64,000 nt of DNA from Astrocystis sublimbata (taxonomy: Eukaryota > Ascomycota > Sordariomycetes > Xylariales > Xylariaceae). Shown one piece after another: positions 29,271-64,000 of the stretch. The notes under the pieces were generated by a model. It was not told the DNA's origin and did not search any database. It worked only from the letters and a program-made list of their open reading frames with translations. Position numbers and translations under genes: made by a program. Every line of letters begins with the position of its first letter. Positions within the stretch are counted from its first letter, which is position 1. The DNA is taken from the NCBI GenBank assembly GCA_022453515.1, contig JAJNNY010000052.1:204173-268172 (forward strand). Direction: 5' to 3'.

Positions 29271-32200
29271 TTTGAGGATTCGCTAGTAAAGTGAAGCAAT
29301 ATGAACTTCTTTATAAAATTCCTCTGACGATCACGAGTGTGACTCACTTCCCTCAACTTTGGGTGTGATGGAGGTTTTCACACTAAGTGCCTATATCCAG
29401 TCTTGACTATCGTCAGCTTATGTGATTAGTGCATGTCAAAAACGTCTTTATGCCAGTACCGAGTTGTGTGACATCGAGGAAATTCATGATCCGGTTACCT
29501 AATAGTGCCGCAGCATTTAACCTTGGCTTAGATCTTAGTCCTTGTCCGAACTCGATTAGCGCTAGTGCGAATGACTTCAGAAGTTCATCAATCAATCTTC
29601 AATCATCACCACCCCCGGGAGGCCTTCATGAAGAGGAAATCAAGTCATTGCCTCCTCTGCGGCAAGTGGCAGAGAGGCAAACGAGAAGACCGAACAATGG
29701 CTTCTCCCACACCCGGTAGCCTCAACCACATCCAAGGTCGGTAACTAGACCCAAGTTGGTACTTAGAGAACGTCTGGGCGTACTAAGCGTAACGTAAGTA
29801 TTGCGGAATTACATATTTTCCTCTCGTTTCCTAAAATTCTTAATTTGTAGATATGCATATTGTTGAATCATGACTTAGACATTGCTGTTCTATTTCAGCG
29901 CTGGCAGATACTTGCCGCACCATGTGGGACAGAAAGGTTGAGAGTTTACAGATGCGGCCTATGTACGCAACTTGTGGAAATGTTCGGAGTAGTTGCGGCG
30001 GCTTTCTTATTTTCCGCACTATATTCGGTAGCCAGCGGGACGGCACTTGGGGACCCAACGCTACAGAAGCGAGTGTGGGGAGGATCAGGATGGACCCCTT
30101 GGGTGGCCCGTGTGATTGGAGCAGACAAGGTCAGTTTGCCTGTTCTAGCCACAGGTACAATGGCAATGTGCCATCGTGAGTCTTGGGCGGGATATTCAGC
30201 CGGCAAGGTAACATCACCAATTCGCGAGGGTGCCGGTGCCGGTAAGCGTTGGCTCACCATGACATTTCGCTTTTTGATCCCCCAGAGGACCTCGCGTATG
30301 GCCGACTTCATACCCACGACTCCAACCGTCGGTTGTTGAACACGCAGGGATTCCATTTTTAGATGGAAAACTCGTTTGGCGGCATGTCTATGGTAGGTGT
30401 GTTTGGATGTCTGGGTATGACCACGTATGTATAAGTAGGTAAATCATGGGTAGAGCCCATCCAGTGCCGTGGCTGATTCCCCTGAAAGCGCAACACACAA
30501 CACACGCACTAATGCAGGACGTCTCTTAGTCAGTCACGGACAACCTGACACACACTTCGTATGGCGGAACTTGTCGAGCTTGTGAGCGAAAATGAAGTCG
30601 ACGGAGCGGCGTGGCTTGCATAAGTGCGAACTGAGTGGGAAACTGCGGTGCTGCACGGCCTTTCGCAACGCCTACCCTTCTCAGGAAACGCTAGAGGCGA
30701 GAAGCAAAATATTGTATGTATGTACGGAGTAAGTCGAGAGGCGAGATGCAGCGCTCGTGTTCACAGCGGTGCAGGTTAGTGGTCTCGGTGGTGTAGCACT
30801 GGGTAGGTAGGGTAGCAGCAAACCGCGCAGGGGTGCATGCAGCCTATTGTTTTTTACTTCCCTCTCCCTCTCCCTCTCCCTCTAGACTGCTGCTCGGTAG
30901 GCGCACCGCTGTCTGACCGCTCGATGCGACCAGCCAAAGGCAAAATATGACCCGGCTAGCTGTAGCCAAGTGTCTAGAACAAAACACATCATAACAACGA
31001 GATGCCCAATTCGGTCTCGACACCATCGCGAATGGTGTTAGTCCGCGTTTGAGGATCAACTCATCGCTCCGCTCGTTTGCGCGATATGGATTTTGGAGGT
31101 GCTCGCTTTCATACTGCGTGTTCGAGGCGCGAGGGCGTCCGTCCACTTGTCGTGTCGGCCGTCTCCCAGACACCCAGAGTGGCGAGAGTGGGTGAGGTTG
31201 AGACTTGGATCCCATCCCATGGATGTTATTGGTAGCACTGGTGAGGTGTGAGCTCCTGTTTGGCTGCTCGAGAGTCGACAGGGCCGAAGATGGGGGCCGC
31301 CAAGGATGGGCTCTTGGTCTTGAGCTGGTTTTTCATCTCATGACTGCCTCTGGGTATCTGGCTGCATGCACGTTTGCTCTGCTCAGCTCGCGTGTTGGAG
31401 AGGCTTGTGCCCAAGCCAGGAACGTGTGATGCACGTTCCCGGCTAATGCCACCGTCGATGGTACCAACCGACCAACTCACATTCTAGATCCTGACGATGG
31501 TACGTCTTGGCAATTAATCTATTCTTTCTCGCCGCTCAGGCGCACGCACGCACGGTACATCCCCATCTCCAGGACAAAGAGATATGATATGTATGACAGT
31601 TGCTGCACCGTCTGCGACACGGGCCCGATGGGGTGCGTGGGTTGATCTTAAGATGTCGCTATCGCCCACTCGGATTCGTTTTTCTTGGGTCATCCCCAGA
31701 TCCTGATCGACGCCAGGCGATCGCCCTTCGTTTTCAGCTTCTAGCCCTGTTTCAACCAGCTGCTGGCCGTTTGTTGTGGCTGAAAGCTTGTGCTTGTGCT
31801 TGCTGGTCTGAAAGAGGTCGACGATAATATTGCATGACCTTTATATCATCTACGACGACCCGCCTGTGCGACCTCGGTCTTCGTAAAGGGATCGTTGATA
31901 GTCTGTCTAGCAATCGGGCCGCACGTCAATCTACCTAGGTATCCAGGGGTTTTTGGGTAGCACAAGAACTCCCAAGCTTCCAAGGTTATATTTATAACCT
32001 TGCCATCGGGAGCCTGCTTGCCTGCTTGCCTGGCAAGAACGTCACTAGTGGTGAATGCGACTGCCTCGTCGCTCGTGTACAGCATCACCTTCTTCGCCGC
32101 TCGTGGTCCGGTCCAGTCCAGTCCAGTCCAATTCTATTCAACCTCATCACACCTGACAGATCGTTTGAATACATAAAGCACTCTCGCTCGTTTCGGTTTT

Positions 32201-32279
32201 CGACACAACCTGCCAAGCATACCACACAACCTTTGCGCCGGATATCGCCCTTCTCATCAGCTAGACTAGACATTTCAAG
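29271..32279. other. Gene-poor stretch spanning the outer part of the left palindrome arm
   Basis: About 3.0 kb upstream of the deformylase gene and of the membrane-anchored gene at 32280. Homology to the far right end of the window begins by 30385. It contains a GA/CT-rich GGGAGA-type repeat (30858-30884), CCTACCTAGGTATCC at about 31930-31944, and a tandem GTCCA run just before 32135. Frames such as 29860-30339 look random. Confidence 0.5.
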
Positions 32280-33312
32280 ATGGTGCAGTTCTTCACTAAT
32301 TGGGAGCTGTGGGAGGAGCTGTCCTTCGTAGGTCTTCCCTTCTTAGCTTGCTTGCATAATTTGAACTCTAGTTAACAGGGTGCAGGTGTTGGCCGCTGGT
32401 ATCGTCGCTGTATTTTTCGTGGGATGGATCAAGTTGTGGTGGACACAAAGGCTCCTGAAGAAGCATGTTCTACTTGACGAAGAAAAGAAAGCTCGGCAGT
32501 CAGAATTGCGCAAGAGTGGCCTCCCCCCCATGAAACGCAGGGAGATCCCCTTCGGCGTGCGCGCCATCCAGAGTGGTGTGGAAATCGAAGGCATCTGGAT
32601 TTCTCGACCGGCTACACCCATGGAGCGGTCCAGCAAATCATCCTCTACATCGCTCGACATCGATACCGAAATCAAGCCCGGAGATAAAGGGAAGGCTGTA
32701 TCAACCGTCGCCGAGATTGAGCCCACCCCTAAGGCAAGCCCACGCCTGAGCCCAGCCGGCAGTTTCGTCCGCCAGAGCACTCGGCCAGAAGCTGGCGATA
32801 CGCTGCCTCTGGAGCCGCAAACGACATACTCGCAGCGTGCGCCAAAGGTTGCCGGAAACACCACACGGTACCCTCAGTCGCCAGCGCCGACGCAAGGCAC
32901 AGCGACCCGACCACACATTGATACCTACATCCCTACCTCCTCATTCCTCGACACGAACTCGTTCCCGTCACCGCGCGCTGTCCCAACGGCGGATCGCAAC
33001 TCGATGTCTTCTGACGATGGCCTCAACTTCTCTGGCCCACGGAATCCGGCACAGGGGAAATACTGCTCGAGGGTTCGCGCCGAGACGAGCGGGAGCCCCT
33101 TCGAGGGCCCGGAAACTGACAGGATATCCAGCCCCCGCCCCCAGTTGACCCCTCGGCCATTCCAAGCGTCCATGCGGCCAACACCTGTTCGTACATATAC
33201 AGACCAGCCTTTGAGAACACCAACGCTTCCGAACATGGGCTTCGAAGCACTACCTGCTGTGACCTTCGAGCGCTCGGGCGCTGACGATAACTCCACTAGA
33301 CTCATGAAGTGA
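32280..33312 (+). CDS. Membrane-anchored conserved fungal protein (left copy)
   Basis: Exons 32280-32327 and 32386-33312 (324 residues; 58-nt intron GTAGGT..GTGCAG). Splicing gives MVQFFTNWELWEELSF joined to VLAAGIVAVFFVGWIKLWW. A single hydrophobic helix at about residues 17-35 anchors a long tail. The next segment is conserved in related fungal proteins: LLKKHVLLDEEKKARQSELRKSGLP and IPFGVRAIQSGVEIEGIWISR. The remaining 230 residues are Ser/Pro/Thr-rich and disordered. I know no function. It is probably an ER or other endomembrane signal-anchor protein. Confidence 0.82.
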
Positions 33313-33971
33313 TCTCTGGCTTTAATGAAGAGTTGTGTGCTTTGAACAGTGAGGAGAAGGACTCCAATGTATATAATGGTCTGGGAACGGCGTTAGGGAT
33401 ACCTGGGTACTCGGAAATATGCTTTCAATTTTTCTTCACCCCAAAAAGAGACGGAGCAGGTTGGTTTAACTAATGTTTACATGGTTTCGATCAATAGAGT
33501 AGTCCATGAAATGAAGCAACAGAATCAAGAGAGATATGCCACAGTATATGCAAATTCATTCACATCTCTTTGGCTTATAATCAAAATTCCCGAACCCTTG
33601 GACTTACAACCTTTCACAACGGCTAATTACGTCTTATCACCATGACAATAAATCAACTCGATGTCATGACTTTATGCGGAAGTAACGGTGTAATTATATG
33701 TGAAGGCCCACCTATCCACAAGACTTACGTGCGGGAAGTTCAAAATGATCGATCACGGTATGTTCCCTTGCTTGACTGACGTTGGAAATCAGGAAGGCGT
33801 TCGAAGACTTTGGCTTGTGTTATCAGCTTTAAATTTCTACGCGGATTCTACACCTACCTAGGTAACAAATCAAATTAGTTTTGGATGTGTGTACTACCAG
33901 AGGAAGATGTCGGTTCCAATCTCCTGGGCGTACTCAATTTTTCCATTTTATACCACGTTGGCTTGGTATTG
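33313..33971. other. Convergent 3' intergenic (left arm)
   Basis: This 659-bp stretch lies between converging genes. It is AT-richer and holds CACCTACCTAGGTAAC at about 33851-33866. No gene; mirrored at 60409-61067. Confidence 0.55.
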
Positions 33972-34883
33972 CTAGTTCAATATCTTTATTGTTTTAGGAT
34001 CTGGTTTGTCTGGTTTGTCTGAGTTGTTTGTAGATCTGGATGGGTTTGCCTCACGATTGAAGCACAAACGGTGAAACGTCTCTACCTCCATCACATTGTG
34101 CCACATGGTTTCCGATTTTGTAATGGAAAATATGTTATTAAGACAGAACCGGAGCAACATCCAAAACATCTGGCCGTGGCGGCCGTTGTCAAGCACCCAT
34201 TGTTGATGATATATATGTTTCGGATCACCGAAGAGATCGAAATACGCGTGAACCATCTCGTGAATGAGGATGGCGAGGTAATAATTGAGAGAGGTGTCAC
34301 CATCTGAAGGGCCATCTTGGCGTTGTTGAGCAATGTATATCATAGCACCCGAAGGATGTATGTTGAAAATGCCCCTCCAATGATGGTTGTTAGGATGAAG
34401 TGCAAGCGTGACGAGTGGCCTTGGGGGTATTGCTTTTCCCCGCCACTTATGTATTTCCATATGTAGTAGACGACAGAAGAACAACCTACTGAAGCATTTG
34501 AAATACTTCGGGATGAATACTTCAAGTTCTTCAGTTGTTAGAAGTCTGTTCCATGTATTATAACGATCGTAGTTGTAGTGGCGCAAGAAATGGCGTATGT
34601 ATTCCGAAACTGGGTCACAGACAGCCTCGCAATTATGCATCAAAAACTTTGTCAGAGTGCCGGCGTCATGCGGAAGGGTGGTCTTGATTTTGCCCTTGAT
34701 ATGGCCCTTAAGGAAGTCAATCATTTCCCTCCTATCTCGTAAGGAGGGATCTTCCTCTTCCTTGTCACCTGACTTCAAAGCGCTATCGGTAGTCGATTCG
34801 TTATCACGATTTGACTTCGAGGCACCTTTGGGAGTCGACTCTTTCCAGGCACCAGTGGCGGGTGGTTTAGTGTGGCTATGCAT
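33972..34883 (-). CDS. SprT-like metalloprotease-fold protein, copy B (left)
   Basis: Single exon, 303 residues from ATG 34883. The N-terminal 50 residues are charged and disordered. The domain has HEMVHAY at residues 208-214 and HGQMF with His236, again 28 residues after the first His, as in copy A at 23801. It is followed by LLRFCLNNIFSITKS, close to copy A's ending. The rest is strongly diverged, so the two are old paralogues rather than part of the palindrome duplication. The tail has a DKPDKPDPK repeat. No zinc ribbon or signal peptide. The substrate is unknown. Confidence 0.85.
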   Translation of the reverse strand: MHSHTKPPATGAWKESTPKGASKSNRDNESTTDSALKSGDKEEEDPSLRDRREMIDFLKGHIKGKIKTTLPHDAGTLTKFLMHNCEAVCDPVSEYIRHFLRHYNYDRYNTWNRLLTTEELEVFIPKYFKCFSRLFFCRLLHMEIHKWRGKAIPPRPLVTLALHPNNHHWRGIFNIHPSGAMIYIAQQRQDGPSDGDTSLNYYLAILIHEMVHAYFDLFGDPKHIYHQQWVLDNGRHGQMFWMLLRFCLNNIFSITKSETMWHNVMEVETFHRLCFNREANPSRSTNNSDKPDKPDPKTIKILN

Positions 34884-35709
34884 ATGCTAGCTGTTTTGTT
34901 GCCTTGTAGTTGGTGTTGTAGTTGTTGGCTGGAGCTTCTATTTATGACATGTCTGCGCTTATGAATCTTCCACCATTGTCCTCCTATATATACCCAGGGT
35001 CGATCATTGTATGGCCCCCGGGTTTGTTTGTCTTCTTTAACTCACGTTATTGGTACTTACACTTTGTTCTCTCCAGCACAATGAGATTGTTCTCTAAAGA
35101 ATGCGCACATATTGATTGAGGCTCGAATTGGGGGCTTGCGCCGAATGTGTAAGCTGCGTACTGCTGTCCATCAATTACCATAGAACCACCTACGTACCGG
35201 CTCACCTCAGGGGATGTTCTGGAGCCCGAGGTATCCGATCGCACGCCTTATGATTGTTTATTGCCTTTCGCACCCAATGGTCAACTCTGCCGAAGGAACA
35301 GGTTGACGACGAATACCTGGTATCAACCATTTTGACACAAAGTTGGCGCCATTTAATCTATACTTAGAGGAATTAGGATTCGAGCAAAGTCCGCTGGACT
35401 CACAAAGGATGTTGTAGGCAACCAACACCTAATGACCGCATTACACCCGTAAACCAGTAATCGGGAATTTAAGACACAACTCGTCATGATCTCACGACTG
35501 GAAAGCAGAAGCGAAGCGCTAATGCCACACAACTATTATGTTCAAGAAAGCGATATATATAGTATCAATTGAAGCTCATTATAACGCCTACCATGCAAAA
35601 CCGGCCATGCAGCTATGTTCGTCTCTTTCGTTACCTTATCCACACCCGACTAATACATGTTCATCAGAAGTTGCCAACATAGAAGCAAGATGGTGGGATA
35701 ATGCTGACT
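34884..35709. other. Intergenic (left arm)
   Basis: This 826-bp stretch lies between the 5' end of SprT-like copy B and the 3' end of RAD51. No gene seen; mirrored at 58671-59496. Confidence 0.55.
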
Positions 35710-36881
35710 CTATTCCTTCTCCATGTCTTTCGGGGCAGGGTCGCCAATTCCATTCTCATTGATGGCGAACAGACAATCGCTTTCCGGAAGGCAGGGACTG
35801 TCGTAAATCTTGGCAATACGGGTCTCGGCACGACCCTTCTTTAAGCTGATTCGTGTTGTGCTAGCGTGAGCCATGATATTACCACCAATTGGCTTTTTGG
35901 GGTCAGGGTTGAACATGGCGCTGGGGCCACCATCGACTTGAGCGACAACCTGATTGGTAATGACGACGGCGATCCCGAACTCATCAGCAAGCCGCTGCAG
36001 ACTGCGCAGGAACTTGGCGAGATGGGACTGTCTCGACGATAGCTCGCCTCGGCCGAGGAAATCAGTTCGGTAGAGGGCTGTGGCACTGTCCACAATCAGA
36101 AGGGAGAAGCGAGTCTCGCACATCATGGTCGCTGCCTGAGTGAGGAGCTGTAGCTGATGGTCGGAATTGTACGCGCGGGCATATGCGACGTTGTCTAGCA
36201 CCTCTTCACCGTTCAAACCATAACGGTTGGCGACCGCCAGCAAGCGTACAGGACGGAAAGTGCCTTCAGTGTCAATGTAAAGACATTTGCCTTCACCACC
36301 ACCCATGTCAAAAGGCAATTGGCAAGTCACGGCTAGGGTGTGGCAAATCTGGCTCTTCCCCGTCCGAAACTCGCCGAAGAGTTCTGTCACCGAGCCGGTC
36401 TCGATACCACCGGCGAGCAAGGTGTCCAGATTCTTGGAGCCCGTTGTGATGGAGATGAGCTCGCTCCTGCGCTGGTGCATCTCCGTTGCCGTGGTAAAGC
36501 CCAAGGGAACAATTTTGGAAGCTAAAAGGGGTTAGAAACCTAGATAGTGCGATACCGGAGGGTATGAGTAGTTACCCTCGGCAATGATCTTGGCAGCTTT
36601 CTGTTCAGAGATGCCCTTGACCTGCTCTAGGACACGCTTGGGTGTGTAGGCGACCGACTCGACGGTCTGAAAACCACCGTCCATCAGGAGTTGACAGTCG
36701 CGCTTCGTGAGGCCAGCAAGTCCCTACACACGCGGGGTCTGATGAGTACGGGTATGCCCCAAGGTCGGCAGGGCGGGAGAGAAGCGCTCACCTCCAGTTG
36801 ACTGACTGGAGTCGGGGCACCAGGGCCAGTCATGCTCGTATCCTCCTCGCCATTCATTTCTTCCTCATATTCTTCTGCCAT
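35710..36881 (-). CDS. RAD51: DNA recombinase Rad51 (left copy)
   Basis: ATP-dependent strand-exchange recombinase for homologous recombination. Exons 36881-36792, 36723-36576, 36521-35710 (349 residues, normal length). The acidic N-terminus is followed by a helix-hairpin-helix domain ([17 protein letters not shown]...[11 protein letters not shown]). The core has Walker A GEFRTGKS at 129-136, [14 protein letters not shown], and Walker B LLIVDSA at 220-226. The loop-2-adjacent [11 protein letters not shown] and the C-terminal [19 protein letters not shown] are typical of Rad51 rather than Dmc1. Start chosen at 36881, the first ATG giving the acidic N-terminus. An identical copy lies at 57499-58670. 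Confidence 0.97.
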
Positions 36882-37659
36882 TTTGGACAATGGGTACTGA
36901 CCGAACCTAAGGCAGCCTAACAGTCTGCCTGTCGAGGTATGATGGATTGGGTATTGAAATGGGAAGTTGGGAGAGGGACGAGGGAAGATCTACAGTAAAA
37001 CTGATCTGGATGCTCAGGTACGGAAGTAGGCAGGAACTCTAGGCATCTAAGTCAACAATAGGCAGTGCAGGTGGGCACCGGCTCGAACGCGTCAACGCGA
37101 CTGAGTGGCAATTACTCATACCTAGGCAGGTAGTACCTGCGGGGAGACAACAAGACTACACTAGCCCGAAATCACGGAATCACGTGACTTTATCCAATAG
37201 GGTAGCTTCCCGCGCCATGGATGATCCACGGCAGTGCTTCAAGCCGGAGCCCCCCACCAACCAGCCCAAGCTTCAACCACAAGGCGCACCGCACCGTCTA
37301 CGATAGTTGGGATAGCAGTAATACTATTACCTGCTAAGATATCAGGTACAATCACTACTACTCTACTACCTCCCATCTATGATAACCTTGTATTTACCTA
37401 CCTAGTACCTACCTAGGTCGTCACACAAAAGACGAAGACCGTTTATTGTTAACAGAATTGGAGTATAAGTTTACCTCTTACAGAACGGTCTGTACAGAAA
37501 TTGTCCAACCGACAAACAACCAAACGTAGGCGCAAAGATATGAAACAATAGCCATCAATCACTCTTCAACGCCAGACTCTTCTACCTGCCGACACTGATA
37601 AATCCAGACCAGAACACGTGGATGTGAGTGAGTAACGCAGACAAAGTTGCAACGCAACA
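36882..37659. other. Divergent RAD51-DUF6604 promoter region (left arm)
   Basis: This 778-bp region serves two divergent genes. It holds ACGCGT at 37087-37092, CACGTG at about 37182-37187 and 37614-37619, and TACCTAGGCAGGTAGTACC and CCTACCTAGGTC palindromic motifs at about 37120-37140 and 37408-37420. Confidence 0.55.
37087..37092. promoter_or_regulatory. Possible MCB/MluI cell-cycle box upstream of RAD51
   Basis: A perfect ACGCGT about 206 bp upstream of the RAD51 ATG, followed within 5 nt by another ACGCG. In yeasts RAD51 is a G1/S gene controlled by MBF through this hexamer. A role here is inference from one short site. The mirror copy is at 57288-57293. Confidence 0.4.
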
Positions 37660-40641
37660 ATGGTCACGCATAATGCCTATTTGACATACAAGCGGGACAC
37701 CCAGCGCCTGGTTTACTGGTTGATCAGAACATCAAATCAAATCATCAAATACCTGCCTGCCACCGACCCAGATGCCACAAGAGCCCCGAAAACATCCAGT
37801 CAAGCGACCGTGGCTGAGCTGCTGGCGCTCTCCCAGTTGATCGCAAAGCACATCGACCCTGTGCCGACCGCCATCTTCCGTCTGTTACAGGCCGTCATCC
37901 GGGCCAGAACACTTTCCTATGAAGCCTTTCAACAAATTGTCGCCAAAAAGCCCGACCCCTCAATGCAGAAAAGCAATGAGGCACACAAATTCTTTATTGA
38001 CGCTTTGACCAACGTCCTCAATTCTCTTGGCGGTGCATCGTCGCCTCCCGCTGCTCAGTCTGCCGACGACGATACCGACATTGACAAAGTTGTCTTCTCC
38101 AACCAATTCGCCTCCCTTAGGCTTGGCTCGTCCGAGCAACCCGGTTCACAAGATGATGAGAGCGATGTTCAAGACGATGTCTCGGATCAAGACGCCGGCC
38201 CGGTAGCTCAATCACAGAGACGTCAGCAGAAAAAGCCAAAGGGCAAGGGCAAGGGCAAGGGCAAAAAGCCAAGGGGCAAAAACCCCAAGAAAAAGGCCCC
38301 CGAAGCGTCGAAGGTGCCATCTCTCGAAGATATTCCCATCGAGAGTTACCGTATCATAGAAGATGGCGATGGCCAAGTAACCGATTACTTGCTTGCCGTG
38401 TACGCTCTGGCGAAAGAGTGGTCCGAGTTGCGTGGCTACCTGCAAGATCTCTGGTATGATGTTGCCTACCGCGGCCTTAATTCAGCTGTTGCCGGCACCA
38501 TGTCTAATATGGCAATTGCCATGATGAAACAATCCGAGACGGCTATTTTTGTCGACTTTCCGGGCCACGACTCGTTCGATGTAGTCTTGAAGACAATCAC
38601 CAGAGGCGACCCTGACGGTGCTCAGGGGCAATTTACGCTCGGCCTGCATGTTCTGAAACCTGGCTCTTCCGAAATGCACAAAGTCCAGGAAACCGAGGTC
38701 GACGTTAAGGAACAGTTCATGGTCTATACCTATCGCGACCTCCTCGATTTCGTTCGAGATTTTCAAAACACAAGGAGTGGGAAGCCAACAAAGGCCATGA
38801 CAGCTCGAATTCGCAACTGGGATCCCTATCTCGATCTCAAACGAGCCACCAAAGACCAACGAATGCAGTGGCGGCGCTCCTATACCATCAAATGGCTCTA
38901 CGACCTTGTGAATGTCTTTTCGTGTATTGTGGTGCAACGGAATAGACTGAAAGGCGAAAACCATGCCTACGAGCGTGTTGATTGGTCAACAAAAGGTCCT
39001 TGGAACGAACATCGCAGGTTGTTTGGCCTGAACGAATTTGCGGGTATAATCACCACTCTCGCTATGCAAAAACCTGGAACAGATGTTCGCAAAAGAATTC
39101 TTCCTAGCCACGTGCTCCAACTCCAGTCCATTGTAGATTCATTCTCCATCTGCCGTGGCTGGTCGAACAGCGCGCTACGTGGTCACATACTTAAGGTGCC
39201 TCCCCATAACTTCAGTCCGAGGCGTGACCTTGACTTGTTCTTAGACCGCGAGAACAAAAGAATGGGACATGGGATTTTGAATGCTGTAAACATACTGAAG
39301 CAATTCTACGACAAGAAAAGCGAGCGTGAACCTAACGCGCACCAACATGAACGGGTGTTACTTGACGGTATTATGTGGGAGTTCATGAATTGGCTGGGGG
39401 AATCTAAGTACCAGTCGGGATTGGATGCAATTCCGCCGTCGCAATTTTCCGATACAAATTCAAATGGGCTCTGGGAGTACTCCCCATTCCTCTGTGGCGT
39501 CGGACTGATGGAAGGTCTAGAGCTAGCATACGCTGCCGGCATGTATCTATGGGAACGCATCCCCGAGCCGATGCTGGTTATCCATTTGCATAACATGGTC
39601 GTGCAGAAAGGCTTCCTTGGGAAGCCCGTCGGACTATATGCGACGTTAGAACAACTGCACCCCTCGGAATTTTTTGCTGAAGGAAAAATCCCGACGTCAG
39701 ACTTCAACTCGGCCCTGCTGGCCGCGACTGGACAATCATCTTCAGCCTTTGTTCGCAGGCTGCGAGATCAAGCTGTTCGCATCGCGTCTCGCACATCTAC
39801 AGATCTACATGGTATTCTCGACACCAAGCTAAATCGCTTCTTCAAGTCCAAGACGATGATTACGTCGTATCGATTGGGCGAGTGGCATTATGAACGAGTC
39901 CCCGAGGAACATATACCAGAAGCCACGCTTCTGGCACGGATAAGGATTGCCGAAATGAAACCGGTAGTCGACGGCGCCTCGGGCAAGACACTGTTTGAGG
40001 GTAACCTTGCCGATAGGATGCGAGCGGCCGGCCTCGATCTTGAGACGACGAAAACTGAGTTCTTGAATTCCCTGGACTCTGAAAAACAAGATGAGATATC
40101 CCAGAAAGCTATGGAGTCTGCGATACCAGAAGGATACAAATTGGGACCGTCTTTGGCCCGCAGCCTCCGTGCACCAAAGATAGGCTCCCCCCAGTTCGGC
40201 GACGGTGATCTACAAGCCTCTGTAAAAACGAAGCTTGACCTCTTGAAGTTCGACATTCTCGTAGACGTGTTCGGTGAGCTACGTCCCCTGTCAAGTCTCA
40301 ACTACGTGTTTGTGACAACGATGTTCCATGTTTTCTTTCACACACTCGAGGGGGAACTAGGCCGTCTGCAGAATCGTTCGTTCTTGAACATATACGAGGG
40401 AACGGCAAACCACAAAACGAAGGCTGAAAAGAGGATCATGCTGGCAACAGTTGCGCTGCAGGGCGACGACGAGGGGTTATTGCGGGTGCTGGCGAAGGTA
40501 TTCGACGAGTCTAGGACGGGGTTCATGAGTCATATTTACTGGGAGGATCTTGCTGACTCGGAAGCGTTGTTCAAACTGATGGGGGATAGTGAAGATCATG
40601 GCATCGATAATCCTGGGGAAGCGAATTGTGTGGTCATGTGA
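37660..40641 (+). CDS. DUF6604-domain protein (left copy)
   Basis: Single exon, 993 residues. The N-terminus YLTYKRDTQRLVYWLIRTSNQIIKYL is the start I recognise from DUF6604, a domain of large uncharacterised fungal proteins. An acidic stretch then precedes a Lys/Gly tract (KGKGKGKGKKPRGKNPKKK, residues about 195-215, coded by tandem AAGGGC). The long helical remainder has no enzyme motif I can name. The acidic/basic tract may be a nuclear signal. It diverges from RAD51, which may only mean a shared promoter. Mirror copy 53739-56720. Confidence 0.85.
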   Translation: MVTHNAYLTYKRDTQRLVYWLIRTSNQIIKYLPATDPDATRAPKTSSQATVAELLALSQLIAKHIDPVPTAIFRLLQAVIRARTLSYEAFQQIVAKKPDPSMQKSNEAHKFFIDALTNVLNSLGGASSPPAAQSADDDTDIDKVVFSNQFASLRLGSSEQPGSQDDESDVQDDVSDQDAGPVAQSQRRQQKKPKGKGKGKGKKPRGKNPKKKAPEASKVPSLEDIPIESYRIIEDGDGQVTDYLLAVYALAKEWSELRGYLQDLWYDVAYRGLNSAVAGTMSNMAIAMMKQSETAIFVDFPGHDSFDVVLKTITRGDPDGAQGQFTLGLHVLKPGSSEMHKVQETEVDVKEQFMVYTYRDLLDFVRDFQNTRSGKPTKAMTARIRNWDPYLDLKRATKDQRMQWRRSYTIKWLYDLVNVFSCIVVQRNRLKGENHAYERVDWSTKGPWNEHRRLFGLNEFAGIITTLAMQKPGTDVRKRILPSHVLQLQSIVDSFSICRGWSNSALRGHILKVPPHNFSPRRDLDLFLDRENKRMGHGILNAVNILKQFYDKKSEREPNAHQHERVLLDGIMWEFMNWLGESKYQSGLDAIPPSQFSDTNSNGLWEYSPFLCGVGLMEGLELAYAAGMYLWERIPEPMLVIHLHNMVVQKGFLGKPVGLYATLEQLHPSEFFAEGKIPTSDFNSALLAATGQSSSAFVRRLRDQAVRIASRTSTDLHGILDTKLNRFFKSKTMITSYRLGEWHYERVPEEHIPEATLLARIRIAEMKPVVDGASGKTLFEGNLADRMRAAGLDLETTKTEFLNSLDSEKQDEISQKAMESAIPEGYKLGPSLARSLRAPKIGSPQFGDGDLQASVKTKLDLLKFDILVDVFGELRPLSSLNYVFVTTMFHVFFHTLEGELGRLQNRSFLNIYEGTANHKTKAEKRIMLATVALQGDDEGLLRVLAKVFDESRTGFMSHIYWEDLADSEALFKLMGDSEDHGIDNPGEANCVVM

Positions 40642-48940: not shown

Positions 48941-49228
48941 ATCCCATAATTTAATTTTGCACCGTAGGCCTGAAAATGAGCCTTCACCAACTTACTTGTA
49001 CATAACTCTATTAGCGACCTACGAATTCTCCTGGGAGCATGGCCGGGTGGCGTTCGGTTTGTGCCGAGGCACGATTACTACTTTAAGACATAAGATTTGG
49101 TGTTTTTAAAAATTTAAAAATTTCTTTCGTCGCTGTAGCCTGACTTATCTATCTCAAAGGTATCACATGTCCCAAGCACAGCGCGCGTCTCACTATTGTA
49201 CATGAGATTTCTCTTCAAAGCACTTTTC

Positions 49229-52898: not shown

Positions 52899-53738
52899 GC
52901 TGAGTCCATCAACACCCGGTGAAGGGCTGCAGAGGATCAGGGTGGGTGTTGTGGATGTGCAGGTTGAGAAAGGCAAGCTGCGACGCGATTGTTGATCTGT
53001 AGGTTAGGTAGGCGAGGTAGGTGTTGCAACTAAATTGTCAGCTACGAGCTACCTAACCTCGCTAACCTAGTCGCGTACCTACCGATAAAAGTGCAGCTCC
53101 AGCTCCTGGCGAGCTGGCCTGCCACCAGTGGAGCTGCAGGGATGTCAACCTGGGCAAGGTTGCCCAGGTGCAGGTGGTCTTACCGATTGGGTACTAGCTT
53201 TTTTCCCCTTCTAGGTACAGCCTAGGTACCAACGTACCTCGGCGCCCTCAAATTGGAAGCTTTTTGGAACCTTCGAAGTTTTCGTAGTTGACTTCAACCA
53301 TTTCAAGGTGAATGAACTTCAAGATTTAATTGTTGAAACGGCGATCGTGCGATTGTGCATTATATTAGAAGATACTTGATCGAAGATAATAGCGAAACTA
53401 TCGTAAGGTCAGTAAGTTATATCTTAAGCAGGTAGCAATACACAGAGTCAATTGTGCTAGGAGGCAGGTAGAGGTAATACCTCCATGACCAGGTAGTATC
53501 AAGCATCGGATCGGCTGTATAGTCGCACAATAGTACAGTTTCTTTCATGTTATGATAGCTGCACACAGATAAAATACGTCCCCCAGACTCAAGGGCAAAC
53601 TAGCCCGCACGGTAAACATATTCGCGACCGGTGCTGATCTGATGGCTGTAAGGCGAAACGAGCGTTCCGGGTGCACACCTCATTATCATCACCAACATCA
53701 TGGATGCTTCCAAAACCAACGCGCATAATCAAAACGTC
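52899..53738. other. Intergenic (right arm)
   Basis: Mirror of 40642-41481. It includes the same TGGGCAAGGTTGCCCA hairpin, here at about 53151-53166. No gene. Confidence 0.55.
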
Positions 53739-56720
53739 TCACATGACCACACAATTCGCTTCCCCAGGATTATCGATGCCATGATCTTCACTATCCCCCA
53801 TCAGTTTGAACAACGCTTCCGAGTCAGCAAGATCCTCCCAGTAAATATGACTCATGAACCCCGTCCTAGACTCGTCGAATACCTTCGCCAGCACCCGCAA
53901 TAACCCCTCGTCGTCGCCCTGCAGCGCAACTGTTGCCAGCATGATCCTCTTTTCAGCCTTCGTTTTGTGGTTTGCCGTTCCCTCGTATATGTTCAAGAAC
54001 GAACGATTCTGCAGACGGCCTAGTTCCCCCTCGAGTGTGTGAAAGAAAACATGGAACATCGTTGTCACAAACACGTAGTTGAGACTTGACAGGGGACGTA
54101 GCTCACCGAACACGTCTACGAGAATGTCGAACTTCAAGAGGTCAAGCTTCGTTTTTACAGAGGCTTGTAGATCACCGTCGCCGAACTGGGGGGAGCCTAT
54201 CTTTGGTGCACGGAGGCTGCGGGCCAAAGACGGTCCCAATTTGTATCCTTCTGGTATCGCAGACTCCATAGCTTTCTGGGATATCTCATCTTGTTTTTCA
54301 GAGTCCAGGGAATTCAAGAACTCAGTTTTCGTCGTCTCAAGATCGAGGCCGGCCGCTCGCATCCTATCGGCAAGGTTACCCTCAAACAGTGTCTTGCCCG
54401 AGGCGCCGTCGACTACCGGTTTCATTTCGGCAATCCTTATCCGTGCCAGAAGCGTGGCTTCTGGTATATGTTCCTCGGGGACTCGTTCATAATGCCACTC
54501 GCCCAATCGATACGACGTAATCATCGTCTTGGACTTGAAGAAGCGATTTAGCTTGGTGTCGAGAATACCATGTAGATCTGTAGATGTGCGAGACGCGATG
54601 CGAACAGCTTGATCTCGCAGCCTGCGAACAAAGGCTGAAGATGATTGTCCAGTCGCGGCCAGCAGGGCCGAGTTGAAGTCTGACGTCGGGATTTTTCCTT
54701 CAGCAAAAAATTCCGAGGGGTGCAGTTGTTCTAACGTCGCATATAGTCCGACGGGCTTCCCAAGGAAGCCTTTCTGCACGACCATGTTATGCAAATGGAT
54801 AACCAGCATCGGCTCGGGGATGCGTTCCCATAGATACATGCCGGCAGCGTATGCTAGCTCTAGACCTTCCATCAGTCCGACGCCACAGAGGAATGGGGAG
54901 TACTCCCAGAGCCCATTTGAATTTGTATCGGAAAATTGCGACGGCGGAATTGCATCCAATCCCGACTGGTACTTAGATTCCCCCAGCCAATTCATGAACT
55001 CCCACATAATACCGTCAAGTAACACCCGTTCATGTTGGTGCGCGTTAGGTTCACGCTCGCTTTTCTTGTCGTAGAATTGCTTCAGTATGTTTACAGCATT
55101 CAAAATCCCATGTCCCATTCTTTTGTTCTCGCGGTCTAAGAACAAGTCAAGGTCACGCCTCGGACTGAAGTTATGGGGAGGCACCTTAAGTATGTGACCA
55201 CGTAGCGCGCTGTTCGACCAGCCACGGCAGATGGAGAATGAATCTACAATGGACTGGAGTTGGAGCACGTGGCTAGGAAGAATTCTTTTGCGAACATCTG
55301 TTCCAGGTTTTTGCATAGCGAGAGTGGTGATTATACCCGCAAATTCGTTCAGGCCAAACAACCTGCGATGTTCGTTCCAAGGACCTTTTGTTGACCAATC
55401 AACACGCTCGTAGGCATGGTTTTCGCCTTTCAGTCTATTCCGTTGCACCACAATACACGAAAAGACATTCACAAGGTCGTAGAGCCATTTGATGGTATAG
55501 GAGCGCCGCCACTGCATTCGTTGGTCTTTGGTGGCTCGTTTGAGATCGAGATAGGGATCCCAGTTGCGAATTCGAGCTGTCATGGCCTTTGTTGGCTTCC
55601 CACTCCTTGTGTTTTGAAAATCTCGAACGAAATCGAGGAGGTCGCGATAGGTATAGACCATGAACTGTTCCTTAACGTCGACCTCGGTTTCCTGGACTTT
55701 GTGCATTTCGGAAGAGCCAGGTTTCAGAACATGCAGGCCGAGCGTAAATTGCCCCTGAGCACCGTCAGGGTCGCCTCTGGTGATTGTCTTCAAGACTACA
55801 TCGAACGAGTCGTGGCCCGGAAAGTCGACAAAAATAGCCGTCTCGGATTGTTTCATCATGGCAATTGCCATATTAGACATGGTGCCGGCAACAGCTGAAT
55901 TAAGGCCGCGGTAGGCAACATCATACCAGAGATCTTGCAGGTAGCCACGCAACTCGGACCACTCTTTCGCCAGAGCGTACACGGCAAGCAAGTAATCGGT
56001 TACTTGGCCATCGCCATCTTCTATGATACGGTAACTCTCGATGGGAATATCTTCGAGAGATGGCACCTTCGACGCTTCGGGGGCCTTTTTCTTGGGGTTT
56101 TTGCCCCTTGGCTTTTTGCCCTTGCCCTTGCCCTTGCCCTTTGGCTTTTTCTGCTGACGTCTCTGTGATTGAGCTACCGGGCCGGCGTCTTGATCCGAGA
56201 CATCGTCTTGAACATCGCTCTCATCATCTTGTGAACCGGGTTGCTCGGACGAGCCAAGCCTAAGGGAGGCGAATTGGTTGGAGAAGACAACTTTGTCAAT
56301 GTCGGTATCGTCGTCGGCAGACTGAGCAGCGGGAGGCGACGATGCACCGCCAAGAGAATTGAGGACGTTGGTCAAAGCGTCAATAAAGAATTTGTGTGCC
56401 TCATTGCTTTTCTGCATTGAGGGGTCGGGCTTTTTGGCGACAATTTGTTGAAAGGCTTCATAGGAAAGTGTTCTGGCCCGGATGACGGCCTGTAACAGAC
56501 GGAAGATGGCGGTCGGCACAGGGTCGATGTGCTTTGCGATCAACTGGGAGAGCGCCAGCAGCTCAGCCACGGTCGCTTGACTGGATGTTTTCGGGGCTCT
56601 TGTGGCATCTGGGTCGGTGGCAGGCAGGTATTTGATGATTTGATTTGATGTTCTGATCAACCAGTAAACCAGGCGCTGGGTGTCCCGCTTGTATGTCAAA
56701 TAGGCATTATGCGTGACCAT
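53739..56720 (-). CDS. DUF6604-domain protein (right copy)
   Basis: Mirror of 37660-40641, identical 993 residues, intact. Even the Lys/Gly-coding tandem repeat has the same unit number in both arms. Such repeats usually drift, so this argues for a very young or artefactual duplication. Confidence 0.85.
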   Translation of the reverse strand: MVTHNAYLTYKRDTQRLVYWLIRTSNQIIKYLPATDPDATRAPKTSSQATVAELLALSQLIAKHIDPVPTAIFRLLQAVIRARTLSYEAFQQIVAKKPDPSMQKSNEAHKFFIDALTNVLNSLGGASSPPAAQSADDDTDIDKVVFSNQFASLRLGSSEQPGSQDDESDVQDDVSDQDAGPVAQSQRRQQKKPKGKGKGKGKKPRGKNPKKKAPEASKVPSLEDIPIESYRIIEDGDGQVTDYLLAVYALAKEWSELRGYLQDLWYDVAYRGLNSAVAGTMSNMAIAMMKQSETAIFVDFPGHDSFDVVLKTITRGDPDGAQGQFTLGLHVLKPGSSEMHKVQETEVDVKEQFMVYTYRDLLDFVRDFQNTRSGKPTKAMTARIRNWDPYLDLKRATKDQRMQWRRSYTIKWLYDLVNVFSCIVVQRNRLKGENHAYERVDWSTKGPWNEHRRLFGLNEFAGIITTLAMQKPGTDVRKRILPSHVLQLQSIVDSFSICRGWSNSALRGHILKVPPHNFSPRRDLDLFLDRENKRMGHGILNAVNILKQFYDKKSEREPNAHQHERVLLDGIMWEFMNWLGESKYQSGLDAIPPSQFSDTNSNGLWEYSPFLCGVGLMEGLELAYAAGMYLWERIPEPMLVIHLHNMVVQKGFLGKPVGLYATLEQLHPSEFFAEGKIPTSDFNSALLAATGQSSSAFVRRLRDQAVRIASRTSTDLHGILDTKLNRFFKSKTMITSYRLGEWHYERVPEEHIPEATLLARIRIAEMKPVVDGASGKTLFEGNLADRMRAAGLDLETTKTEFLNSLDSEKQDEISQKAMESAIPEGYKLGPSLARSLRAPKIGSPQFGDGDLQASVKTKLDLLKFDILVDVFGELRPLSSLNYVFVTTMFHVFFHTLEGELGRLQNRSFLNIYEGTANHKTKAEKRIMLATVALQGDDEGLLRVLAKVFDESRTGFMSHIYWEDLADSEALFKLMGDSEDHGIDNPGEANCVVM

Positions 56721-57498
56721 TGTTGCGTTGCAACTTTGTCTGCGTTACTCACTCACATCCACGTGTTCTGGTCTGGATTTATCAGTGTCGGCAGGTAGAA
56801 GAGTCTGGCGTTGAAGAGTGATTGATGGCTATTGTTTCATATCTTTGCGCCTACGTTTGGTTGTTTGTCGGTTGGACAATTTCTGTACAGACCGTTCTGT
56901 AAGAGGTAAACTTATACTCCAATTCTGTTAACAATAAACGGTCTTCGTCTTTTGTGTGACGACCTAGGTAGGTACTAGGTAGGTAAATACAAGGTTATCA
57001 TAGATGGGAGGTAGTAGAGTAGTAGTGATTGTACCTGATATCTTAGCAGGTAATAGTATTACTGCTATCCCAACTATCGTAGACGGTGCGGTGCGCCTTG
57101 TGGTTGAAGCTTGGGCTGGTTGGTGGGGGGCTCCGGCTTGAAGCACTGCCGTGGATCATCCATGGCGCGGGAAGCTACCCTATTGGATAAAGTCACGTGA
57201 TTCCGTGATTTCGGGCTAGTGTAGTCTTGTTGTCTCCCCGCAGGTACTACCTGCCTAGGTATGAGTAATTGCCACTCAGTCGCGTTGACGCGTTCGAGCC
57301 GGTGCCCACCTGCACTGCCTATTGTTGACTTAGATGCCTAGAGTTCCTGCCTACTTCCGTACCTGAGCATCCAGATCAGTTTTACTGTAGATCTTCCCTC
57401 GTCCCTCTCCCAACTTCCCATTTCAATACCCAATCCATCATACCTCGACAGGCAGACTGTTAGGCTGCCTTAGGTTCGGTCAGTACCCATTGTCCAAA
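56721..57498. other. Divergent RAD51-DUF6604 promoter region (right arm)
   Basis: Mirror of 36882-37659, with the ACGCGT at 57288-57293 and the CCTAGGT motifs retained. Confidence 0.55.
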
Positions 57499-58670
57499 AT
57501 GGCAGAAGAATATGAGGAAGAAATGAATGGCGAGGAGGATACGAGCATGACTGGCCCTGGTGCCCCGACTCCAGTCAGTCAACTGGAGGTGAGCGCTTCT
57601 CTCCCGCCCTGCCGACCTTGGGGCATACCCGTACTCATCAGACCCCGCGTGTGTAGGGACTTGCTGGCCTCACGAAGCGCGACTGTCAACTCCTGATGGA
57701 CGGTGGTTTTCAGACCGTCGAGTCGGTCGCCTACACACCCAAGCGTGTCCTAGAGCAGGTCAAGGGCATCTCTGAACAGAAAGCTGCCAAGATCATTGCC
57801 GAGGGTAACTACTCATACCCTCCGGTATCGCACTATCTAGGTTTCTAACCCCTTTTAGCTTCCAAAATTGTTCCCTTGGGCTTTACCACGGCAACGGAGA
57901 TGCACCAGCGCAGGAGCGAGCTCATCTCCATCACAACGGGCTCCAAGAATCTGGACACCTTGCTCGCCGGTGGTATCGAGACCGGCTCGGTGACAGAACT
58001 CTTCGGCGAGTTTCGGACGGGGAAGAGCCAGATTTGCCACACCCTAGCCGTGACTTGCCAATTGCCTTTTGACATGGGTGGTGGTGAAGGCAAATGTCTT
58101 TACATTGACACTGAAGGCACTTTCCGTCCTGTACGCTTGCTGGCGGTCGCCAACCGTTATGGTTTGAACGGTGAAGAGGTGCTAGACAACGTCGCATATG
58201 CCCGCGCGTACAATTCCGACCATCAGCTACAGCTCCTCACTCAGGCAGCGACCATGATGTGCGAGACTCGCTTCTCCCTTCTGATTGTGGACAGTGCCAC
58301 AGCCCTCTACCGAACTGATTTCCTCGGCCGAGGCGAGCTATCGTCGAGACAGTCCCATCTCGCCAAGTTCCTGCGCAGTCTGCAGCGGCTTGCTGATGAG
58401 TTCGGGATCGCCGTCGTCATTACCAATCAGGTTGTCGCTCAAGTCGATGGTGGCCCCAGCGCCATGTTCAACCCTGACCCCAAAAAGCCAATTGGTGGTA
58501 ATATCATGGCTCACGCTAGCACAACACGAATCAGCTTAAAGAAGGGTCGTGCCGAGACCCGTATTGCCAAGATTTACGACAGTCCCTGCCTTCCGGAAAG
58601 CGATTGTCTGTTCGCCATCAATGAGAATGGAATTGGCGACCCTGCCCCGAAAGACATGGAGAAGGAATAG
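57499..58670 (+). CDS. RAD51: DNA recombinase Rad51 (right copy)
   Basis: Mirror of 35710-36881. Exons 57499-57588, 57657-57804, 57859-58670. Identical 349-residue protein with Walker A and B intact. Two identical RAD51 genes would be unusual, since fungi normally keep one. Confidence 0.95.
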
Positions 58671-59496
58671 AGTCAGCATTATCCCACCATCTTGCTTCTA
58701 TGTTGGCAACTTCTGATGAACATGTATTAGTCGGGTGTGGATAAGGTAACGAAAGAGACGAACATAGCTGCATGGCCGGTTTTGCATGGTAGGCGTTATA
58801 ATGAGCTTCAATTGATACTATATATATCGCTTTCTTGAACATAATAGTTGTGTGGCATTAGCGCTTCGCTTCTGCTTTCCAGTCGTGAGATCATGACGAG
58901 TTGTGTCTTAAATTCCCGATTACTGGTTTACGGGTGTAATGCGGTCATTAGGTGTTGGTTGCCTACAACATCCTTTGTGAGTCCAGCGGACTTTGCTCGA
59001 ATCCTAATTCCTCTAAGTATAGATTAAATGGCGCCAACTTTGTGTCAAAATGGTTGATACCAGGTATTCGTCGTCAACCTGTTCCTTCGGCAGAGTTGAC
59101 CATTGGGTGCGAAAGGCAATAAACAATCATAAGGCGTGCGATCGGATACCTCGGGCTCCAGAACATCCCCTGAGGTGAGCCGGTACGTAGGTGGTTCTAT
59201 GGTAATTGATGGACAGCAGTACGCAGCTTACACATTCGGCGCAAGCCCCCAATTCGAGCCTCAATCAATATGTGCGCATTCTTTAGAGAACAATCTCATT
59301 GTGCTGGAGAGAACAAAGTGTAAGTACCAATAACGTGAGTTAAAGAAGACAAACAAACCCGGGGGCCATACAATGATCGACCCTGGGTATATATAGGAGG
59401 ACAATGGTGGAAGATTCATAAGCGCAGACATGTCATAAATAGAAGCTCCAGCCAACAACTACAACACCAACTACAAGGCAACAAAACAGCTAGCAT
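58671..59496. other. Intergenic (right arm)
   Basis: Mirror of 34884-35709. No gene. Confidence 0.55.
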
Positions 59497-60408
59497 ATGC
59501 ATAGCCACACTAAACCACCCGCCACTGGTGCCTGGAAAGAGTCGACTCCCAAAGGTGCCTCGAAGTCAAATCGTGATAACGAATCGACTACCGATAGCGC
59601 TTTGAAGTCAGGTGACAAGGAAGAGGAAGATCCCTCCTTACGAGATAGGAGGGAAATGATTGACTTCCTTAAGGGCCATATCAAGGGCAAAATCAAGACC
59701 ACCCTTCCGCATGACGCCGGCACTCTGACAAAGTTTTTGATGCATAATTGCGAGGCTGTCTGTGACCCAGTTTCGGAATACATACGCCATTTCTTGCGCC
59801 ACTACAACTACGATCGTTATAATACATGGAACAGACTTCTAACAACTGAAGAACTTGAAGTATTCATCCCGAAGTATTTCAAATGCTTCAGTAGGTTGTT
59901 CTTCTGTCGTCTACTACATATGGAAATACATAAGTGGCGGGGAAAAGCAATACCCCCAAGGCCACTCGTCACGCTTGCACTTCATCCTAACAACCATCAT
60001 TGGAGGGGCATTTTCAACATACATCCTTCGGGTGCTATGATATACATTGCTCAACAACGCCAAGATGGCCCTTCAGATGGTGACACCTCTCTCAATTATT
60101 ACCTCGCCATCCTCATTCACGAGATGGTTCACGCGTATTTCGATCTCTTCGGTGATCCGAAACATATATATCATCAACAATGGGTGCTTGACAACGGCCG
60201 CCACGGCCAGATGTTTTGGATGTTGCTCCGGTTCTGTCTTAATAACATATTTTCCATTACAAAATCGGAAACCATGTGGCACAATGTGATGGAGGTAGAG
60301 ACGTTTCACCGTTTGTGCTTCAATCGTGAGGCAAACCCATCCAGATCTACAAACAACTCAGACAAACCAGACAAACCAGATCCTAAAACAATAAAGATAT
60401 TGAACTAG
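59497..60408 (+). CDS. SprT-like metalloprotease-fold protein, copy B (right)
   Basis: Mirror of 33972-34883, identical 303 residues with HEMVHAY and HGQMF intact. With copy A at 23801 the window shows three SprT-like genes, two of them identical. Confidence 0.85.
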   Translation: MHSHTKPPATGAWKESTPKGASKSNRDNESTTDSALKSGDKEEEDPSLRDRREMIDFLKGHIKGKIKTTLPHDAGTLTKFLMHNCEAVCDPVSEYIRHFLRHYNYDRYNTWNRLLTTEELEVFIPKYFKCFSRLFFCRLLHMEIHKWRGKAIPPRPLVTLALHPNNHHWRGIFNIHPSGAMIYIAQQRQDGPSDGDTSLNYYLAILIHEMVHAYFDLFGDPKHIYHQQWVLDNGRHGQMFWMLLRFCLNNIFSITKSETMWHNVMEVETFHRLCFNREANPSRSTNNSDKPDKPDPKTIKILN

Positions 60409-61067
60409 CAATACCAAGCCAACGTGGTATAAAATGGAAAAATTGAGTACGCCCAGGAGATTGGAACCGACATCTTCCTCTGGTAGTACACACATCCAAA
60501 ACTAATTTGATTTGTTACCTAGGTAGGTGTAGAATCCGCGTAGAAATTTAAAGCTGATAACACAAGCCAAAGTCTTCGAACGCCTTCCTGATTTCCAACG
60601 TCAGTCAAGCAAGGGAACATACCGTGATCGATCATTTTGAACTTCCCGCACGTAAGTCTTGTGGATAGGTGGGCCTTCACATATAATTACACCGTTACTT
60701 CCGCATAAAGTCATGACATCGAGTTGATTTATTGTCATGGTGATAAGACGTAATTAGCCGTTGTGAAAGGTTGTAAGTCCAAGGGTTCGGGAATTTTGAT
60801 TATAAGCCAAAGAGATGTGAATGAATTTGCATATACTGTGGCATATCTCTCTTGATTCTGTTGCTTCATTTCATGGACTACTCTATTGATCGAAACCATG
60901 TAAACATTAGTTAAACCAACCTGCTCCGTCTCTTTTTGGGGTGAAGAAAAATTGAAAGCATATTTCCGAGTACCCAGGTATCCCTAACGCCGTTCCCAGA
61001 CCATTATATACATTGGAGTCCTTCTCCTCACTGTTCAAAGCACACAACTCTTCATTAAAGCCAGAGA
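60409..61067. other. Convergent 3' intergenic (right arm)
   Basis: Mirror of 33313-33971. No gene. Confidence 0.55.
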
Positions 61068-62100
61068 TCACTTCATGAGTCTAGTGGAGTTATCGTCAGC
61101 GCCCGAGCGCTCGAAGGTCACAGCAGGTAGTGCTTCGAAGCCCATGTTCGGAAGCGTTGGTGTTCTCAAAGGCTGGTCTGTATATGTACGAACAGGTGTT
61201 GGCCGCATGGACGCTTGGAATGGCCGAGGGGTCAACTGGGGGCGGGGGCTGGATATCCTGTCAGTTTCCGGGCCCTCGAAGGGGCTCCCGCTCGTCTCGG
61301 CGCGAACCCTCGAGCAGTATTTCCCCTGTGCCGGATTCCGTGGGCCAGAGAAGTTGAGGCCATCGTCAGAAGACATCGAGTTGCGATCCGCCGTTGGGAC
61401 AGCGCGCGGTGACGGGAACGAGTTCGTGTCGAGGAATGAGGAGGTAGGGATGTAGGTATCAATGTGTGGTCGGGTCGCTGTGCCTTGCGTCGGCGCTGGC
61501 GACTGAGGGTACCGTGTGGTGTTTCCGGCAACCTTTGGCGCACGCTGCGAGTATGTCGTTTGCGGCTCCAGAGGCAGCGTATCGCCAGCTTCTGGCCGAG
61601 TGCTCTGGCGGACGAAACTGCCGGCTGGGCTCAGGCGTGGGCTTGCCTTAGGGGTGGGCTCAATCTCGGCGACGGTTGATACAGCCTTCCCTTTATCTCC
61701 GGGCTTGATTTCGGTATCGATGTCGAGCGATGTAGAGGATGATTTGCTGGACCGCTCCATGGGTGTAGCCGGTCGAGAAATCCAGATGCCTTCGATTTCC
61801 ACACCACTCTGGATGGCGCGCACGCCGAAGGGGATCTCCCTGCGTTTCATGGGGGGGAGGCCACTCTTGCGCAATTCTGACTGCCGAGCTTTCTTTTCTT
61901 CGTCAAGTAGAACATGCTTCTTCAGGAGCCTTTGTGTCCACCACAACTTGATCCATCCCACGAAAAATACAGCGACGATACCAGCGGCCAACACCTGCAC
62001 CCTGTTAACTAGAGTTCAAATTATGCAAGCAAGCTAAGAAGGGAAGACCTACGAAGGACAGCTCCTCCCACAGCTCCCAATTAGTGAAGAACTGCACCAT
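61068..62100 (-). CDS. Membrane-anchored conserved fungal protein (right copy)
   Basis: Mirror of 32280-33312. Exons 62100-62053 and 61994-61068, 324 residues, identical. It is the outermost gene of the right arm, about 1.1 kb inside the point where the arms begin to differ. Confidence 0.82.
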
Positions 62101-64000
62101 CTTGAAATGTCTAGTCTAGCTGATGAGAAGGGCGATATCCGGCGCAAAGGTTGTGTGGTATGCTTGGCAGGTTGTGTCGAAAACCGAAACGAGCGAGAGT
62201 GCTTTATGTATTCAAACGATCTGTCAGGTGTGATGAGGTTGAATAGAATTGGACTGGACTGGACTGGACCGGACCACGAGCGGCGAAGAAGGTGATGCTG
62301 TACACGAGCGACGAGGCAGTCGCATTCACCACTAGTGACGTTCTTGCCAGGCAAGCAGGCAAGCAGGCTCCCGATGGCAAGGTTATAAATATAACCTTGG
62401 AAGCTTGGGAGTTCTTGTGCTACCCAAAAACCCCTGGATACCTAGGTAGATTGACGTGCGGCCCGATTGCTAGACAGACTATCAACGATCCCTTTACGAA
62501 GACCGAGGTCGCACAGGCGGGTCGTCGTAGATGATATAAAGGTCATGCAATATTATCGTCGACCTCTTTCAGACCAGCAAGCACAAGCACAAGCTTTCAG
62601 CCACAACAAACGGCCAGCAGCTGGTTGAAACAGGGCTAGAAGCTGAAAACGAAGGGCGATCGCCTGGCGTCGATCAGGATCTGGGGATGACCCAAGAAAA
62701 ACGAATCCGAGTGGGCGATAGCGACATCTTAAGATCAACCCACGCACCCCATCGGGCCCGTGTCGCAGACGGTGCAGCAACTGTCATACATATCATATCT
62801 CTTTGTCCTGGAGATGGGGATGTACCGTGCGTGCGTGCGCCTGAGCGGCGAGAAAGAATAGATTAATTGCCAAGACGTACCATCGTCAGGATCTAGAATG
62901 TGAGTTGGTCGGTTGGTACCATCGACGGTGGCATTAGCCGGGAACGTGCATCACACGTTCCTGGCTTGGGCACAAGCCTCTCCAACACGCGAGCTGAGCA
63001 GAGCAAACGTGCATGCAGCCAGATACCCAGAGGCAGTCATGAGATGAAAAACCAGCTCAAGACCAAGAGCCCATCCTTGGCGGCCCCCATCTTCGGCCCT
63101 GTCGACTCTCGAGCAGCCAAACAGGAGCTCACACCTCACCAGTGCTACCAATAACATCCATGGGATGGGATCCAAGTCTCAACCTCACCCACTCTCGCCA
63201 CTCTGGGTGTCTGGGAGACGGACGACACGACAAAGTGGACGGGACGCCCTCGCGCCTCGAAACACGCAGTATGAAAGCGAGCACCTCCAAAATCCATATC
63301 GCGCAAACGAGCGGAGCGATGAGTTGATCCTCAAACGCGGACTAACACCATTCGCGATTGTGTCGAGACCGAATTGGGCATCTCGTTGTTATGATGTGTT
63401 TGTTCTAGACACTTGGCTACAGCTAGCCGGGTCATATTTTGCCTTTGGCTGGTCGCATCGAGCGGTCAGAACAGCGGGCGCCTACGAGCAGCAGTCTAGA
63501 GGGAGAGGGAGAGGGAGAGGGAAGTAAAAAACAATAGGCTGCATGCACCCCTGCGCGGTTTGCTGCTACACCTACCTACCCCAGTGCTACACCACCGAGG
63601 ACCACCTAACCTGCACCGCTGTGAACACGAGCGCTGCATCTCGCCTCTCGACTTACTCCGTACATACATACAATATTTTGCTTCTCGCCTCTAGCGTTTC
63701 CTGAGAAGGGTAGGCGTTGCGAAAGGCCGTGCAGCACCGCAGTTTCCCAACTCAGTTCGCACTTATGCAAGCCACGCCGCTCCGTCGACTTCATTTTCGC
63801 TCACAAGCTCGACAAGTTTCCCGCCATACGAAGTGTGTGTCAGGTTGTCGTGACTGACTACAGAGACGTCCTGCATTAGTGCGTGTGTTGTTGTTGCGCT
63901 TTCAGGGGAATCAGCCACGGCACTGGATGGGCTCTACCCATGATTACTACTTATACATACGTGGTCATACCCAGACATCCAAACACACCTACCATAGACA
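62101..64000. other. Gene-poor right end of window
   Basis: Mirror of 30385-32279. It matches exactly to 63221, then differs by small indels to the window edge. No gene supported. Confidence 0.55.

Follow-up and report, generated by a model that had tools for sequence, protein, structure and literature searches.

Does the genome of the ascomycete Astrocystis sublimbata carry a block of six genes twice, in mirror image, or does the palindrome that holds them exist only in its assembly (GCA_022453515.1; 42.6 megabases in 189 contigs)? The window analyzed here, a stretch of 64,000 nucleotides (nt) that covers bases 204173-268172 of contig JAJNNY010000052.1 (hereafter C138), had been described in an initial annotation as containing a giant palindrome with a 27-nt spacer, for which two origins were offered, a fold-back artefact or a real and very recent palindromic duplication. 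We conclude that the palindrome, although correct as a string of letters, is very probably not present in the genome, and that it is almost certainly a fold-back chimera with which an assembled contig ends.

Self-comparison of the window returned a single inverted match, 30385-64000 against 64000-30385, at 99.83% identity, which confirms both the palindrome and its spacer. The left arm (30385-47176, forward strand; 16,792 base pairs, bp) would represent the real locus, with open reading frames (ORFs) for Rad51, DUF6604, Nup120 and Vps26 and two unassigned ORFs. It is followed by the spacer (47177-47203) and by the right arm (47204-64000, reverse strand; 16,797 bp), which is the reverse complement of the left arm and very probably a spurious duplicate of it. 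Over their inner 16,018 bp the two arms show no difference at all, in agreement with the 16.0 kilobases (kb) in which none had been detected, and a 16 kb inverted pair of this kind cannot be due to chance. The arms differ at 21 positions (2 mismatches, 19 gap positions), every one of them in the outermost 774 bp of the left arm, where the outer tip of the right arm (63222-64000, reverse strand; 779 bp) aligns to positions 30385-31158. Because the insertions and deletions of this outer part shift the register, the mirror coordinates sum to 94380, as had been noted, in the inner part but not in the outer part.

The end of contig C138 and the continuation of its locus

Contig C138 is 268,172 bp long, and the final base of the right arm is the final base of the contig. 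A real palindromic duplication is expected to have unique DNA beyond the outer ends of both arms, but here the right arm is unflanked. The first 600 nt of C138 contained no telomere repeats, and the contig closes with the arm. The confinement of all differences to the outer tip would be the pattern expected of a corrected long read where coverage thins, and the perfect identity of the inner part is what correction of both halves by reads of a single locus would give.

Further evidence comes from a search of the genome with the left arm, in which three of the four candidates were scored and C138's own copies were absent from the matches listed. The search placed the inner 3.2 kb of the arm on contig C146 and a repeat rich in adenine and thymine (AT-rich) on contigs C113 and C118. 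The stretch shared with C146 (43984-47176, forward strand; 3,193 bp) shows 0 differences and constitutes, in inverted orientation, the terminal 3,193 bp of that contig, which extends past the palindrome centre into other DNA. The next recognized ORFs in C146 past VPS26 are an L6-like ribosomal-protein ORF, whose weak match of 23.1 bits lies under the curated cut-off of 27, and a radical-SAM ORF. At its other limit the shared stretch stops within a NUP120 ORF (42174-44288), inside which C146 terminates and of which C138 carries the remainder. C138 and C146 are thus probably adjoining contigs that overlap by 3.2 kb.

The spacer itself has a source in this undisturbed locus. A string test showed that its 27 nt, once reverse-complemented, are identical to the 27 bases next to the arm in C146. 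This indicates that copying of the second arm began on the opposite strand, 27 bases past the position where the first arm ends. The palindrome centre also interrupts the dispersed AT-rich repeat, part of which occupies positions 46891-47176 (forward strand). When the copy in C146 was compared with those in C113 (477 bp aligned, 93% identity) and C118 (470 bp, 91%), both alignments ran across the breakpoint unbroken. Since the repeat is cut in C138 and unbroken in the three other contigs, the undisturbed order would appear to be the older one. The locus continues past the breakpoint in C146, and the repeat stands intact in C113 and C118, as a fold-back artefact predicts. The repeat, about 470 bp long in C146, C113 (at 479.3 kb) and C118 (at 88.4 kb), is perhaps a mutated mobile element.

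Inverted copies at other contig tips

Recurrence of the structure was surveyed by taking 75-110 nt from each contig tip and looking on the contig concerned for an inverted copy that was nearly exact. The survey covered C1-C18, C113, C138, C146, every tenth contig from C20 to C180, C48, C77 and C118, a set that was not a random draw. The start of C60 and the end of C15, which is telomeric, were omitted, and C138's own end is not among the 38 ends counted. In most searches 40 candidates were scored, so that copies may have been missed, and wherever the candidates were crowded by repeats the counts are minimum values. An own-contig inverted copy was found for at least 13 of the 38 ends, comprising at least 8 of 18 in a first set (C1, C7, C9, C11, C12, C13, C14 and C16) and at least 5 of 20 in a second (C40, C130, C150, C160 and C170). 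Starts were positive in at least 4 of 39 cases, with at least 2 of 20 in the first set (C2 and C9) and at least 2 of 19 in the second (C20 and C120). Among 10 interior pieces taken as a control (two each from C138, C146, C113, C118 and C77), 0 had such a copy. The ends of C60 and C100, whose own-contig inverted matches were short-range or repeated elsewhere, and the start of C13, a short local hairpin, were left out of the count. The two tips of C9 were less clean than the others, with further copies in C60 and C62. The only tip to show telomere sequence was that of C15, where positions 57828-58027 hold 33 copies of the TTAGGG hexamer in 200 bp.

Arm lengths at 18 places, C138 included, range from 3.5 to 20.7 kb with a median of 15.7 kb. 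Middles were inspected at 11 of these 18 places, a subset to which C40, C130, C150, C160, C170, C20 and C120 do not belong. Nine middles were fetched by position, and all nine showed an inverted self-match across the middle at 85.8-100% identity, the weakest being that of C7, with many gaps. C2, read whole, is a palindrome from base 1 to base 7062. The arm lengths are plausible for long reads, and the location at contig tips would point to folded-back reads; this set of tips probably reflects widespread terminal fold-backs.

Two pairs of contigs suggest that a single locus can be folded at more than one point. C2 and C48 share identical first 110 bases and the same arm and differ in their fold points, which surround an ORF that combines tRNA-synt_2c with tRNA_SAD domains. 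C48 looks redundant, since its end is likewise found in C2. The first central half of C13 (C13:817321-818321) occurs twice in C68 (8661-10130), as inverted copies 454 bp apart. A locus that folded at two points would be easier to reconcile with independent accidents than with a single fixed duplication.

Origin of the palindrome and competing explanations

Under the fold-back explanation, a long molecule or read would have followed the left arm up to the AT-rich repeat, switched strands within it, re-entered 27 bases further on and returned along the same path. The assembler would then have extended C138 with this chimera, and ordinary reads of the single real locus would have corrected both halves to one sequence, except at the thinly covered outer tip. 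The true genome would hold each gene of the arm once, with the left arm running on into C146. We infer the order of these assembly steps, and likewise that the join was made during library preparation, amplification or sequencing and not in the living fungus. The reversed orientation of the spacer fits a copying or reading process that departs from one strand and resumes on the other slightly further on, and the C138 structure is compatible both with template switching during amplification and with the reading of both strands of a molecule, a few bases being lost at the turn. A missed sequencing adapter was rejected as the source of the spacer, which is genomic DNA. Snap-back, in which a strand primes on its own end, is disfavored, since it predicts a spacer in native orientation and that of C138 is reversed. 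The fold of C48, in contrast, has a 223-nt spacer that by eye is apparently in native orientation, so that fold-backs in this assembly may differ in kind. Palindromes produced by whole-genome amplification have their junctions at short inverted homology. Inspection of the junctions by eye gave a homology of 1 nt in C138 (4 nt on the assumption that a T dropped out of a run) and of 8 nt for C2 against C48.

Chimeras of this type have been described from sequencing reads. The passages of the Breakinator report (PMC12870357) that concern fold-backs, or duplicated inversions, define the artefact by a breakpoint close to the middle of the read and place it at about 0.55-0.6% of genomic reads from Oxford Nanopore Technologies, with virtually no fold-backs in PacBio HiFi and Mas-Seq samples; that artefact is known from reads, whereas the case of C138 comes from an assembled contig. 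Similarly artificial long palindromes, which damage assemblies, are the subject of the corresponding part of the Pacasus report (PMC6218980), which attributes them to whole-genome amplification or missed SMRTbell adapters and gives fold-back reads of 45.8% and 11.8% in amplified PacBio data sets against 0.5% in an unamplified control.

Several points weigh against a fold-back chimera in C138. Our reading draws on the assembled sequence. The contig end by itself is not proof, given that the contig could stop there as well if the palindrome were real and its arms exceeded the reads in length, and C146 might conceivably represent a third real copy, of at least 3.2 kb, the case being built on sequence and not on copy number. 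Searches with two other middles turned up no near-identical undisturbed contig: matches to that of C12 were dispersed repeats 82-92% alike, and the match to that of C13 was C68, itself with two inverted copies, so that the proof offered by C146 is limited to C138. The interior control of 10 pieces is small and was not matched for AT content. Ends carried inverted copies more often than starts (13 of 38 compared with 4 of 39), and the recurrence might reflect the organism instead of the data. Each of these alternatives demands more assumptions than do fold-back reads, an artefact already on record.

We consider it very unlikely that the fold-backs are real molecules, with frequent strand switching during replication or repair at AT-rich repeat tracts of this fungus leaving some nuclei with chromosomes that end in long palindromes, many of which were caught in the assembly. 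Less likely still is the proposal of faithful sequencing of true fold-back molecules that a minority of nuclei had formed, either through breakage with fold-back repair or through template switching at AT-rich tracts. The spacer has the orientation that a strand switch leaves, C2/C48 and C13/C68 suggest one locus with two fold points, and all inspected middles are AT-rich: the guanine-cytosine (GC) content of the central 1 kb (0.8 kb for the start of C9) is 0.20-0.47 in the nine fetched middles, C2 and C138. By comparison, 30 of the 184 overlapping 1 kb bins in positions 1-46000 of the window have a GC content below 0.48. Contigs, however, tend to break at AT-rich repeats anyway; the composition of the middles is consequently confounded, and AT-rich stretches are also present inside other contigs (minimum GC 0.345). 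In addition, structures of this kind are produced by library artefacts, whose rates are known.

Just as improbable as fold-back molecules in a minority of nuclei is a real palindromic duplication of very recent date that became fixed and doubled the six genes, its arms outrunning the reads and so stopping the contig. Such a duplication would account for 16 kb of identical arms, and its junction lies in an AT-rich repeat, a possible site of breakage. Large palindromes reportedly arise in vivo from short inverted repeats, as described by Tanaka and colleagues in 2002, and these resemble the C138 structure in being long inverted duplications with a short centre. C138 differs from them in that the undisturbed locus is found in the same assembly and the second arm is without flank. 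The duplication would require a third copy of the locus, given the undisturbed continuation and intact repeat of C146, and it sits poorly with differences that are nearly all gaps and confined to the outer tip and with comparable structures at other contig tips. Of the two origins offered by the initial annotation, the fold-back artefact is thus supported by the contig end, the overlap with C146, the source of the spacer and the recurrence at other tips, while the doubling of RAD51, NUP120, VPS26, DUF6604 and the other genes finds no support in view of C146. The scenario with the least chance, that no chimeric read was involved and the assembler itself linked the contig with its reverse complement, would suit a structure at a contig end and the identical first 110 bases of C2 and C48, but the 27-nt step copies real neighboring DNA, which is easiest if one molecule carries it inverted, and the arm lengths are plausible for reads.

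Genes of the arm and use of the assembly

The fold-back explanation removes a false lead, in that RAD51, NUP120, VPS26 and the other genes are very probably not doubled, and the apparent doubling should be left out of account. Biologically the finding has little interest; its use is practical, for those who work with this assembly. The assembly probably has many terminal fold-backs, and the 18 places would comprise about 250 kb of duplicated sequence. Contig tips should be trimmed before gene counts, synteny or recent duplications are analyzed in this genome.

Six genes had been proposed on the arm, and Pfam matches bear out four of them. The Rad51-domain ORF (35710-36504, reverse strand) matches PF08423 (E 1.6e-131), the DUF6604 ORF (37660-40641, forward strand) PF20253 (E 1.5e-47), and the Vps26 ORF (45576-46253, reverse strand) PF03643 (E 4.4e-78). 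The Nup120 gene (41404-45151, forward strand) consists of three ORFs with matches to PF11715, PF21486, PF23300 and PF23354. In a search with the DUF6604 protein, in which the 7,998 candidates with the most words in common were scored, the top named homologues were mostly from Xylariales, the best at 52% identity, which would make the fungus an ascomycete and probably a member of the Sordariomycetes. The other two proposed genes, a membrane protein and a SprT-like protein, are taken to be the ORFs at 32380-33312 and 33972-34883, respectively, for neither of which was a Pfam family found at E<=0.001; a HEMVH motif was spotted by eye in the latter. Outside the palindrome, a possible SprT-like ORF lies at positions 23801-24718 of the window, with a match to PF10263 of 23.3 bits against a curated cut-off of 25.6.

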